From positions 1,156,726 through 1,220,725 of the forward strand of contig NZ_LN890655.1 of the NCBI RefSeq assembly GCF_900066015.1: a stretch of DNA of 64,000 nt, written 5' to 3'. Under the pieces are notes generated by a model. The model was not told the origin of the DNA and made no database searches. It was given only the letters and a program-made list of their open reading frames with translations. Below are positions 36,780 to 43,595 of this stretch, in pieces. The stretch comes from Candidatus Promineifilum breve (GTDB taxonomy: Bacteria; Chloroflexota; Anaerolineae; Promineifilales; Promineifilaceae). How positions within the stretch are numbered: the first letter of the stretch is position 1; each line of letters begins with the position of its first letter. Both the position numbers and the translations under genes were made by a program.

Positions 36780-36807
36780 TTGACACACAGCGTCATTGGA
36801 GTATCAT
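36780..36807 (+). promoter_or_regulatory. Sigma-70-type promoter of amt
   Basis: TTGACA (36780-36785) and TATCAT (36802-36807) are 16 bases apart. The predicted start near 36814 gives a leader of about 167 bases with an intrinsic terminator inside it. Confidence 0.7.
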
Positions 36808-36870
36808 GTACGCTTGTGTCCAGCCACGGCCCCAGCGGCCGAGGGTGGGCCGAATAGAATAATCAGTCTT

Positions 36871-36929
36871 AGGCCACGACGCCTCACGCAACGCTCAAGC
36901 GAGCTTTGCGGCGAGGCGTTTTTTATTTT
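36871..36929 (+). terminator. Leader terminator (attenuator) upstream of amt
   Basis: ACGCCTC (36879-36885) pairs with GAGGCGT (36913-36919) as the base of a long stem, then TTTTTT-A-TTTT follows. It lies after the promoter and before the amt start, so full transcription needs read-through. An alternative hairpin AGGC-CACGAC-GCCT (36871-36884) uses part of the same 5' arm, and a second small hairpin GCT-CAAGCG-AGC (36893-36904) lies in the upper part. Two hexaloops next to a terminator are the layout of ANTAR-protein target RNAs, but the loop sequences fit only partly. Confidence 0.65.
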
Positions 36930-36980
36930 GCCGGTGGCCGGCGTGATGGCGGTCAGTCGATAATAAATGGAGGAGAGACA

Positions 36981-38360
<1,380 letters not shown>

Positions 38361-38397: not shown

Positions 38398-38430
38398 GCC
38401 CGGCCCCCTCGCGCAGAGAGGGGGCCGGGC
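38398..38430 (+). terminator. 13-bp perfect hairpin between amt and glnA
   Basis: GCCCGGCCCCCTC (38398-38410) and GAGGGGGCCGGGC (38418-38430) form a very GC-rich stem with a seven-base loop. The T tract that follows (ATTGTTTG) is weak, so it may slow or partly stop transcription or stabilise the amt mRNA 3' end. Confidence 0.65.
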
Positions 38431-38467: not shown

Positions 38468-39871
38468 ATGACACCGAACGACGTATCCAAATTGATTAAA
38501 GAGAAGAGCATCGAAGTCATAGACATCAAGTTCACCGACCTGTTTGGTCAGTGGCAACACTTCTCCGTGCCGGTTGAGGAATTCAGCGAAGAAGGGGCCT
38601 TCGAGGAAGGTCTGGGCTTCGACGGCTCCTCGATCCGCGGCTTCCAGAGCATCGAATCGAGCGACATGATCCTCATCCTCGACCCGTCCACGGCTATCGT
38701 TGACCCGATCTGTGCCGCGCCGACACTCAGTCTGGTGGGCGATGTCTACGACCCGATCAGCCGCCAGCCGTACTCGCGCGACCCGCGCTACGTGGCCCGC
38801 AAGGCGGTGGAGTACATGAAGGGCACGGGCATCGCCGACACGGCCTACTTCGGCCCGGAGGCGGAGTTTTTCGTCTTCGACAAGGTGATGTACTCGGCCG
38901 GCGAATACTCCGCGGCCTATCAGGTCGATAGCGTCGAAGGGCCGTGGAACTCCGGCATCTTCGGCTTCGGCCACTCCGTGCCCCACAAGCGCGGCTACTT
39001 CCCGGTGGCCCCGTTCGACACGCTGCAAGATTTGCGCTCGGAAATGGTGCGCGAATTGATCGACGCCGGTGTGCCCATCGAACTGCACCACCACGAAGTC
39101 GGCACGGCCGGGCAGTGCGAGATCGATATGCACTACGACACGATGGTCAAGATGGCCGACAACGTGCAGCTCTATAAGTACATCGTCAAGAACGTGGCCC
39201 AGCGCCACGGCAAGACGGTCACCTTCATGCCCAAGCCGATCTACGCCGACAACGGCTCCGGTATGCACACCCACCAGAGCTTGTGGAAGGACGGCCAGCC
39301 GCTATTCTTCGACGCGGACGGCTATGCGCAGCTCAGCCAACTGGCAAAGTGGTACATCGGCGGCATCCTGAAGCACATCAATGCCCTGCTGGCGATCTGC
39401 GCCCCGACGACCAACAGCTACCGGCGGCTCGTGCCCGGCTATGAGGCCCCCGTGGTCATCGCCTACTCGGCCCGCAACCGCTCGGCGGCCATCCGCATCC
39501 CCATGTACTCCAAGTCGCCCAAGGCCAAGCGCATCGAGTTCCGCTGCCCCGACCCGGCGGCCAACCCGTATCTGGCCTTCGCCGCCATGCTCATGGCCGG
39601 GCTGGACGGCATCAAGAACCAGATCGACCCCGGCGACCCGGCCGAGATGGATCTGTTCCACGAGGAGAATATCAGCAAGGTGACGATGACCGTGGGCAAG
39701 CTGAACGAGGCCCTCGACGCGCTGGAGGCCGACCACGACTTCCTGCTGGAGGGCGGCGTCTTCACCAAGGACGTGCTCGATGCCTACATCAGCTACAAGC
39801 ACGAGACGGAGATCGGCCCGGTCAGTCTGCGGCCGCATCCGTATGAGTTCCTGCTCTATTACGGCATCTAG
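38468..39871 (+). CDS. glnA: Glutamine synthetase type I
   Basis: This 467-residue GSI subunit has the beta-grasp domain (LGFDGSSIRGF), the catalytic barrel (GPEAEFFVFD, HHHEVGTAGQCEIDM, NGSGMHTHQSLWKDG) and RIEFRCPDPAANPYL. It forms a dodecamer that makes glutamine from glutamate and ammonia. The adenylylation loop (NLYDLPP in enterobacteria) reads EMDLFHEEN here, with Phe in place of the modified Tyr, so control by adenylylation is unlikely. GGAGG precedes the ATG at 38468. Confidence 0.97.
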   Translation: MTPNDVSKLIKEKSIEVIDIKFTDLFGQWQHFSVPVEEFSEEGAFEEGLGFDGSSIRGFQSIESSDMILILDPSTAIVDPICAAPTLSLVGDVYDPISRQPYSRDPRYVARKAVEYMKGTGIADTAYFGPEAEFFVFDKVMYSAGEYSAAYQVDSVEGPWNSGIFGFGHSVPHKRGYFPVAPFDTLQDLRSEMVRELIDAGVPIELHHHEVGTAGQCEIDMHYDTMVKMADNVQLYKYIVKNVAQRHGKTVTFMPKPIYADNGSGMHTHQSLWKDGQPLFFDADGYAQLSQLAKWYIGGILKHINALLAICAPTTNSYRRLVPGYEAPVVIAYSARNRSAAIRIPMYSKSPKAKRIEFRCPDPAANPYLAFAAMLMAGLDGIKNQIDPGDPAEMDLFHEENISKVTMTVGKLNEALDALEADHDFLLEGGVFTKDVLDAYISYKHETEIGPVSLRPHPYEFLLYYGI

Positions 39872-41296: not shown

Positions 41297-42883
41297 ATGG
41301 AACGACATGCCGACGACGGGCCGCAACGCCTGCCCGCCCTGGCCGCCCTGCGCGCCATCGCCCGCTCACTCAGCGCCGCCTGGGATTTGGACACCACGCT
41401 CGATCTCATCGCCCGCAAGACGACCGAGGTCATGGGGGTGGAATCCTGCACGATCTACCTGCTGGACACCGACGGCGCGACGTTGCGGCTGCGGGCTTCC
41501 ACCGGCCTGTCGCCCCAGGCGCTCGGCCGGGCCACGCTGCAAGTCGGCGAGGGCATGACCGGCCTGGCCGTGGCCGAGAACCGCCCCGTCTTCGCCGCCG
41601 ACGCCCAACACGACCCTCACTTCAAATGGCTGGATGACACGGAAGAGATGCGCTTTCGCTCGTTGCTGGCCGCGCCACTGGTGCTGGAAGACCGGCCCAT
41701 CGGCGCGCTCAACGTGCAGACGGTCGAACCGCGCCACTACACGGCGGGCGAGATCGAACTGCTGGCCCTCATCAGCGATCTGGCCGCCGGGGCGCTGGCT
41801 AAGGCTCAACTCTACGACCGGCAACGGCGACAACTTGACGACCTGCGGACATTGGCCCAGGTGAGCGAGGCCATCACCTCGCCGCAATATCTGGACGACA
41901 TTTTGGCCGTGGTCACCGAGTTGGCCGCCCGCACGGTCGGCGCGTCGGCCTGCGCCATCTATTTGCGCGAGATGGGCGACGACCCGGCCGATAGTGACCC
42001 GCCCCTGCTGGCCCACCCACCCCGCGCCGAACTGGATAGTACCCCGCTCGATCCCGTTTTGCTGGCCGAGGTGGCCCGCGGCGGCCGGCCGTTATACGTC
42101 GCGCAACTGGCCGGTTCCGGCGCGGCCCTGCTGGCCGTGCCGCTGTCCGTCCAGGAACGGGTGATCGGCGTATTGGCCTGCCTGGGGCCGCCCGGCCACG
42201 CCTTCAGCGAAAGCCAGGAGGCGCTGCTGACCACGCTGGCTAACCAGACGGCGCTGGCGATTGAGAACGCCCGGCTGGTGACCAGCGCCGCCGTCGTGCG
42301 CGAGATGCACCACCGCATCAAGAACAATCTGCAAACGGTGGCGATGCTGATGCAACTCCAGTTGCCGGAGGCCGACCGGCTGGAGACGCGCCAGGTGCTG
42401 CTAACCAACATCCACCGCATCCGCAGCATCGCCGCCGTCCACGAAATCCTGTCCGACCAGGGCTTCCGGCTGGTCAACGTGAAGGCCGTGCTGGAGCGCA
42501 TCGCCCAGACGACGATGACCGGCATGGCCCGGCCCGACCAGCCGGTACGCATTGCCGTGCGCGGCGACAACCTGCAACTGCCCAGCCGCGCGGCCACGGC
42601 CGTGGCGGTGGTCGTCAACGAACTGATCCAGAACAGCCTGGAGCACGCCTTCGTCGGCCGCGCCGCCGGGCGCATCGACATCGCTCTGGCCCGCACGCCC
42701 GACGCGCTGATGATCCTGGTGCGCGACGACGGCGTGGGGCTGCCGGACGAACTGGAGCATAATCTGGGGCTGGAGATCGCCCAGGCGCTGGTGGTCGAGG
42801 ACTTGCAGGGCGAGTTACAATTCAATCGGCTGCCGGGCGGGGCTGAGGTTTGTATTCGCCTGCCGCGCGCGGCCGAGGGGTAA
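41297..42883 (+). CDS. GAF-GAF sensor histidine kinase (HisKA_2 type)
   Basis: This 528-residue soluble kinase has two GAF domains (about 25-180 and 195-340), then the HisKA_2 phosphoacceptor region REMHHRIKNNLQTVAMLMQLQ-type (His near residue 337) and an HATPase domain (VVVNELIQNSLEHAF, VRDDGVGLP). No membrane helices are found, so the signal is cytoplasmic. The same kinase class partners with ANTAR response regulators (EutW/EutV in Enterococcus). The ANTAR regulator is 157 bases downstream. The ligand of the GAF domains is unknown. Confidence 0.93.
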   Translation: MERHADDGPQRLPALAALRAIARSLSAAWDLDTTLDLIARKTTEVMGVESCTIYLLDTDGATLRLRASTGLSPQALGRATLQVGEGMTGLAVAENRPVFAADAQHDPHFKWLDDTEEMRFRSLLAAPLVLEDRPIGALNVQTVEPRHYTAGEIELLALISDLAAGALAKAQLYDRQRRQLDDLRTLAQVSEAITSPQYLDDILAVVTELAARTVGASACAIYLREMGDDPADSDPPLLAHPPRAELDSTPLDPVLLAEVARGGRPLYVAQLAGSGAALLAVPLSVQERVIGVLACLGPPGHAFSESQEALLTTLANQTALAIENARLVTSAAVVREMHHRIKNNLQTVAMLMQLQLPEADRLETRQVLLTNIHRIRSIAAVHEILSDQGFRLVNVKAVLERIAQTTMTGMARPDQPVRIAVRGDNLQLPSRAATAVAVVVNELIQNSLEHAFVGRAAGRIDIALARTPDALMILVRDDGVGLPDELEHNLGLEIAQALVVEDLQGELQFNRLPGGAEVCIRLPRAAEG

Positions 42884-43040: not shown

Positions 43041-43595
43041 ATGCTGATCCTAATCGCCGAAGACGAATCGATCAACCGCCTGGGCCTCAAGTCGATGCTG
43101 GAGGAGTTGGGCCACCGCGTCATCGCCGCCACCAACGGCCGCGAGGCCATCCGCATGGTCGAGCGCCAGCAGCCCGACCTGGCGATCCTCGACATCCACA
43201 TGCCCTATACCGACGGCCTACAGGCGGCGCGGGCTATCATGGCCGACAACCCGCTGCCCATCCTCATCCTGACCGCCTACAGCGAGCAAGACCTCATCGA
43301 GCGGGCCACCGACCTGCCGATTCAGGGCTATCTGCTCAAGCCGGTGGCCCCCGAGGCGCTGGCCGCGGCCATCACCTTGGGCGTCAAGCGCTTTGCCGAG
43401 GGCCGGGCGCAGGCGACGCGCGCGGCGCAACTGGAGGCCGACCTGGCCGCGCGCAAACTCATCGACCGGGCCAAGGGGCGGCTCATGCAGGGCGGTATGA
43501 GCGAGGCCGAGGCGTACCGGACGATCCAGGAGCGCGCCCGGCGCGAGCGGCAGACGTTGGCGGCGGCGGCGGCGGCCGTGTTGGCGGGCAATTGA
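43041..43595 (+). CDS. Response regulator with ANTAR RNA-binding output domain
   Basis: This 184-residue protein has a receiver domain (IAEDESINRLGLKSMLEE, phospho-Asp in LAILDIHMPYTDG, Lys in GYLLKPVAPE), a coiled-coil linker, and a C-terminal ANTAR domain (LIDRAKGRLMQGGMSEAEAY). ANTAR proteins bind paired hexaloop hairpins in nascent RNA and prevent terminator formation; known targets are often nitrogen or ethanolamine genes. Its kinase lies upstream. The attenuator-like leader of amt, 6 kb away, is a candidate target. A short phosphatase gene begins two bases after its stop. Confidence 0.94.
   Translation: MLILIAEDESINRLGLKSMLEELGHRVIAATNGREAIRMVERQQPDLAILDIHMPYTDGLQAARAIMADNPLPILILTAYSEQDLIERATDLPIQGYLLKPVAPEALAAAITLGVKRFAEGRAQATRAAQLEADLAARKLIDRAKGRLMQGGMSEAEAYRTIQERARRERQTLAAAAAAVLAGN

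Follow-up and report, generated by a model that had tools for sequence, protein, structure and literature searches.

In Candidatus Promineifilum breve, the window (the whole 64,000-nucleotide stretch that was analysed) carries an ammonium transporter gene, amt, preceded by a leader and followed by glnA, a histidine kinase gene and a response regulator gene. The features relevant here are as follows.

36780..36807, + strand: sigma-70-type promoter, TTGACA-N16-TATCAT (hexamers 36780-36785 and 36802-36807; 11 of 12 consensus matches)
36856..36861, + strand: AGAATA, an A-rich box of the RAATA type upstream of the hairpin, enriched in family elements
36871..36884, + strand: putative antiterminator hairpin, AGGC-CACGAC-GCCT (loop C1 A2 C3 G4 A5 C6), overlapping the terminator 5′ arm
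36879..36929, + strand: intrinsic terminator with T-run (stem 36879-36919, then TTTTTTATTTT), from folding and covariation
36969..36975, + strand: amt ribosome-binding site GGAGGAG, from sequence
36981..38360, + strand: amt, ammonium transporter (ATG at 36981; PF00909, E 8.6e-122)
38468..39871, + strand: glnA, glutamine synthetase type I, the gene after amt (PF00120)
41297..42883, + strand: GAF-GAF-HisKA_2-HATPase histidine kinase, from domain matches; precedes the ANTAR gene
43041..43595, + strand: REC-ANTAR response regulator (PF00072, PF03861; ANTAR domain about 43425-43583; Arg167 codon 43539-43541)

A preliminary description of this DNA had proposed a promoter with a 16-bp spacer and an intrinsic terminator with a T-run ahead of amt. 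Both are borne out. The promoter hexamers recur unchanged in the amt leader of a congener (G005), and the leader folds at -51.4 kcal/mol as compared with -37.3 in shuffled sequences (z -4.2; 0 of 200 shuffles equally stable). The T-run ends about 55 nt before the amt start. Upstream of the leader lies gltB in divergent orientation, which leaves the terminator without a preceding gene on the amt strand to serve. Between amt and glnA (38398-38430) there is a strong GC-rich hairpin that lacks a clean T-run; partial termination at this site may set the amt:glnA ratio.

A conserved hairpin that overlaps the terminator

Leaders were fetched from 79 relatives using the Amt protein as query, and 24 leaders from the window's family (f1) were long enough to read. 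The hairpin and the overlapping terminator are present in all 24, with compensatory changes, a recurrence well above what chance would give, and the hairpin had been placed exactly by the preliminary description. It is absent from five amt leaders of other families in the class (L010, L014, L015, L019, L020). The region 5′ of one family leader (L003 / L165, genome G007) includes what is apparently Illumina/Nextera adapter sequence, an assembly artefact.

The 24 family loops, which were collected with no selection on the loop, have C at position 1, A or G at position 2, any base at position 3, G at position 4, A at position 5, and C, A or T at position 6. Thus, the consensus of the element is one hairpin with the loop C-R-N-G-A-H, in which G4 is retained and A1 is replaced by C. 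Several features of a canonical ANTAR target are evident: a six-base terminal loop on a short, covarying stem in all family elements; G4 in 24/24 amt leaders and invariant in alignment A4; a loop-closing C-G pair (columns 17-24 are CG in 29/29 elements of a wider set, and in 30/31 of a family set, with one UG); and overlap with the 5′ arm of an intrinsic terminator. The A expected at loop position 1 is replaced by C in all 24 amt leaders, and this C is invariant in A4. Hence, the C noticed at this position in the preliminary description is a general property of the element family rather than a local quirk. Upstream, about 10–14 nt 5′ of the hairpin, a RAATA box occurs in 22 of 33 family elements (6.0 expected; maximum 13 in 1000 shuffles). 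This box may be a second contact, or a piece of a weak, variable hairpin.

The 5′ arm of the terminator contains loop positions 5–6 of the hairpin plus its 3′ strand. An alignment of 31 family elements (A1, whose non-amt members were picked with a rule on the loop) shows 12 double-change cells in the hairpin stem, a number reached in none of 500 shuffles and falling to 0–7 when the stem is slid. Pair 15-26 is GC in 27 elements and AU in four, and pair 14-27 occurs as AU, GC, CG and GU. For the terminator, 95% of cells are paired and 25 are double-change cells, again unmatched in 500 shuffles. When a wider set of 29 elements drawn from several families is used, the hairpin has 15 double-change cells and the terminator 39; relatedness of the sequences inflates such counts, yet the AU form is not confined to a single genus or a single family. 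Because column 26 pairs in both the hairpin and the terminator, columns 15 and 26 and the terminator partner change together, and this concerted movement of three columns is evidence for two mutually exclusive helices. Aligning related amt leaders was one of the checks originally proposed for this region, and in the element alignments both helices covary. We conclude that the leader is almost certainly an attenuator that is conserved and can adopt either of two folds, in line with the earlier reading of a G4 hexaloop hairpin that competes with a terminator.

Distribution of the element

By covariance-model search (model R1, E-value at most 1e-4), 40 of the 52 family genomes contain the element, mostly in one or two copies; model E-values are rough and most of the genomes are drafts. 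In the window's own genome, the sole match is at the amt hairpin (61.3 bits). Beyond the family, the element extends to at least nine families of the class, again at about one or two per genome, and a 340-genome sample of the phylum contained no match outside the class. Matches in G241, which has no ANTAR, and in G004, where the match resembles coding sequence, look spurious, as do some weak ones.

The genes behind the element are mostly nitrogen-related. Within the family they are amt, glnA (GSI) and glnN (GSIII), the element at glnA being seen in relatives G003, G006, G020, G024, G026, G036 and others. Other families have the element ahead of amt, glnA, a glutamate-synthase-like (gltB-like) gene, and genes for an amidoligase/transglutaminase, a circularly permuted ATP-grasp protein and a LysE exporter. 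The short pattern RGCCANGACGCY alone matches in 78 of 79 genomes and is uninformative; combined with its terminator partner it is specific, with the reversed-pattern control near zero. A scan of gene neighbourhoods that allowed any loop was too permissive.

Rfam provides no name for the element. At the gathering level the window matches no family but a tRNA, and up to E 10 no relevant family appears near amt, glnA/glutamine RNAs included.

A linked REC-ANTAR regulator

The window's genome encodes a single ANTAR protein, 6.6 kb from the element. It has both a receiver domain (Response_reg, 93.6 bits) and an ANTAR domain (52.2 bits, against a curated cut-off of 27.3). Most of the family genomes that were examined have the kinase gene next to the one for the ANTAR protein, and the GAF-GAF-HisKA_2 kinase is the likely partner of the regulator. 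One genome (G023:C327:2952-3365; L117) has a 316-residue open frame with three tandem ANTAR-domain matches.

In the EutV-RNA structure, G4 of the loop is stacked on Tyr164 and held by Arg142, Lys149 and Glu160, while A1 is without contact; Met172 acts as a plug in the loop, and RNA binding is lost in M172A (PMC8934654). To map residues, we aligned the regulator to EutV as deposited (6wsh/6ww6); the Met172 position falls in a gap-free stretch of this alignment. The window regulator keeps the G4-contact residues as Arg137, Lys144, Glu155 and Tyr159. At the position of the Met172 plug it has Arg167. All of the roughly 40 family ANTARs that were read have Arg here, as do the ANTARs beside elements in families f15, f23 and f45 and those of G288, G321, G261, G363, G194 and G125; the ten best class-level ANTARs have Met.

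The element also keeps company with the ANTAR gene. The two are 4–9 kb apart in 11 family genomes and only 65–550 bp apart in 12 genomes of f15, f23 and f45. In f45 the order is ANTAR-element-amt, with the element about 90–200 bp past the ANTAR gene and directly 5′ of amt. This order was seen by any-loop scan of the ANTAR loci in G204, G247 and G255, which were then added to model R2; an R2 search returned the same order in five f45 genomes on which the model had not been trained (G149, G181, G213, G221, G263). In G363, of another family, an element-glnA unit lies 5.5 kb from the ANTAR gene. Outside f1, counting as Arg-type those ANTARs with an A2 score of at least 77 bits, 15 genomes have both ANTAR and element, 23 ANTAR only, five element only and 316 neither (Fisher p 1.4e-12, which ignores shared ancestry). 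All but one of the 23 ANTAR-only genomes belong to f5, and in three of the five element-only genomes (G125, G194, G213) the sequence shows an Arg-type ANTAR that scores below this threshold. The earlier suggestion of an ANTAR regulator as the likely partner of the amt leader is thus supported by the single nearby gene, the conserved linkage and the co-occurrence across families.

The association has exceptions. Within f1, element and ANTAR were both found in 34 of 40 genomes, and seven drafts have the element with no ANTAR gene detected (G007, G008, G010, G032, G036, G038, G039). Incompleteness may be the cause, but G008, G036 and G038 scored 92–95% complete. Conversely, at the Arg-type REC-ANTAR loci of f5 (G053, G095, G144, G177, G274 and others; L211, L285, L294, L298-L300) no element was found, either nearby or by the models. 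A similar element occurs in three genomes with no known Arg-type ANTAR, at nadE in G062, lpd in G084 and ilvB in G086, so the link between Arg and the loop is not strict. In G062 the C1 hexaloop is CGAGAA, with an overlapping terminator (L035 2636-2651), and the sole ANTAR there is of the Met type; in G084 it is CGCGAA, likewise with an overlapping terminator (L327). Perhaps C1 loops serve Met-type ANTARs as well, or perhaps these hairpins are due to chance. The G062 element is not conserved in the nadE leaders of Met-type relatives. In the sequences compared, the loop change (A1 to C, with A5 fixed) and the plug change go together, f5 and G062 being exceptions.

Discussion

Here, we propose that the amt leader is an ANTAR-type antitermination switch with one C1 hexaloop, and we put the probability of ANTAR control at roughly 0.8. 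In the absence of a signal, the transcript started at 36780-36807 would fold the 36879-36919 terminator, and polymerase would stop before amt. The neighbouring GAF-HisKA_2 kinase would phosphorylate the REC-ANTAR regulator, a dimer of which would bind the single hexaloop hairpin at 36871-36884, gripping G4. The bound hairpin would persist long enough to withhold the terminator 5′ arm, allowing polymerase to read into amt and probably glnA. We infer regulator binding, the direction of control, phosphorylation and the signal, the last three from EutV/EutW and from the genes controlled; nitrogen limitation is the likely signal. Several observations count against ANTAR control: the missing second hairpin, the change of Met172 to Arg, the f1 drafts with no ANTAR gene detected, the Arg-type ANTARs of f5 with no element detected, and the similar elements in three genomes with no known Arg-type ANTAR.

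The seven f1 drafts, together with the ANTAR-bearing lineages that lack the element, would also fit an arrangement in which another antitermination protein or a small ligand targets the same hairpin, riboswitch-like, and ANTAR is linked merely through shared nitrogen metabolism. We regard this as unlikely. The hairpin is probably too small for a typical ligand pocket, and it matches nothing in Rfam. Moreover, in different families and in front of different genes the element stays with the ANTAR gene itself, at distances as short as 65–200 bp, and hallmarks of ANTAR targets include the hexaloop, G4 and the C-G pair that closes the loop (PMC7496416, PMC8934654).

With a G4 hexaloop overlapping a terminator and an ANTAR gene nearby, it is natural to suspect a canonical dual-hexaloop leader, as the preliminary description did. 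Its second hexaloop, GCT-CAAGCG-AGC, is present as letters (36895-36906), but these form the apex of the terminator, pairing as GCTC-AAGC-GAGC, and have no conserved counterpart. Nor does another hairpin take its place. Among 33 elements, G4 hexaloops on stems of at least 4 bp occur downstream, in the terminator interior, in four (5.2 in shuffles) and in the 35 nt upstream in two (2.4 in shuffles); for A1+G4 hexaloops the figures are two upstream (1.1 in shuffles) and none downstream (1.3). A single hairpin is what is conserved, and the tandem pair with a short linker is not seen. A few leaders do have an upstream A1/G4 hexaloop, such as GATA-ACAGAA-TATC in G025, which could be the unrecognised partner, but in several leaders the predicted gap from promoter to hairpin is merely about 20–30 nt. 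A dual-hexaloop leader is accordingly quite improbable, and the element should not be filed under the canonical dual-hexaloop motif, because two of the defining features, the tandem hairpins and A1, are lacking. It is far-fetched, finally, to take the stem, which as DNA is the inverted repeat AGGC-N6-GCCT, for a transcription factor operator beside an ordinary terminator, since the loop is conserved asymmetrically (C-R-N-G-A-H), the stem has G-U pairs, position 26 co-changes with both RNA partners, and the fixed overlap with the terminator 5′ arm would go unexplained.

Within ANTAR control, we lean slightly towards a more specific hypothesis: that a distinct Arg-plug branch of ANTAR proteins controls nitrogen assimilation through one C-R-N-G-A-H hexaloop, with no tandem hairpin, and that the changes in the plug and at loop position 1 together constitute a switch in protein-RNA specificity.

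EutV antitermination in vivo requires the second hairpin (PMC3369931), although one hexaloop is the minimal binding unit in the EutV structure; the authors of that structure left open why antitermination needs two hexaloops, and asked how widely single-hexaloop sites are used (PMC8934654). Beyond their paper, we found no literature on ANTAR in this lineage or on single-hexaloop ANTAR targets. The element described here offers a natural set of dozens of one-hairpin attenuators tied to ANTAR genes, in at least nine families. If ANTAR control is confirmed, then neither the pair of hairpins nor A1 nor Met172 is a general rule, and target searches that rely on them miss a regulon. A single short RNA and a single protein would then also suffice for testing nitrogen control in a poorly studied lineage.

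Several known systems bear comparison. The cyanobacterial glnA/glutamine riboswitch (RF01739; PMC2864571) likewise lies 5′ of amt, glnA and glutamate synthase genes; the amt element, which has no Rfam match, differs from it in size and structure. The same targets recur in PMC3369931, where ANTAR regulons were predicted bioinformatically for amt, glnA and glutamate synthase genes; the criteria used there, a pair of hairpins having A1 and G4, would pass over the present element. The nasF leader of Klebsiella oxytoca, controlled by NasR, shares the G4 hexaloop, the terminal C:G pair, the overlap with a terminator and the connection to nitrogen assimilation (PMC7496416). NasR, unlike the window regulator, has a NIT sensor domain; it needs both hairpins for full affinity, binds a single hairpin at about 12 uM, and preferred A1 in selection (PMC7496416). 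The eut leaders of Enterococcus faecalis and their EutV/EutW system combine a REC-ANTAR regulator and a kinase with a G4 hexaloop overlapping the terminator 5′ arm, again at nitrogen-related genes (PMC3369931, PMC8934654). Relative to these, the amt-type element has one hairpin instead of two, C1 instead of A1, a conserved A5 and an A-rich upstream box, and its candidate regulator has Arg where EutV has its obligatory Met172.
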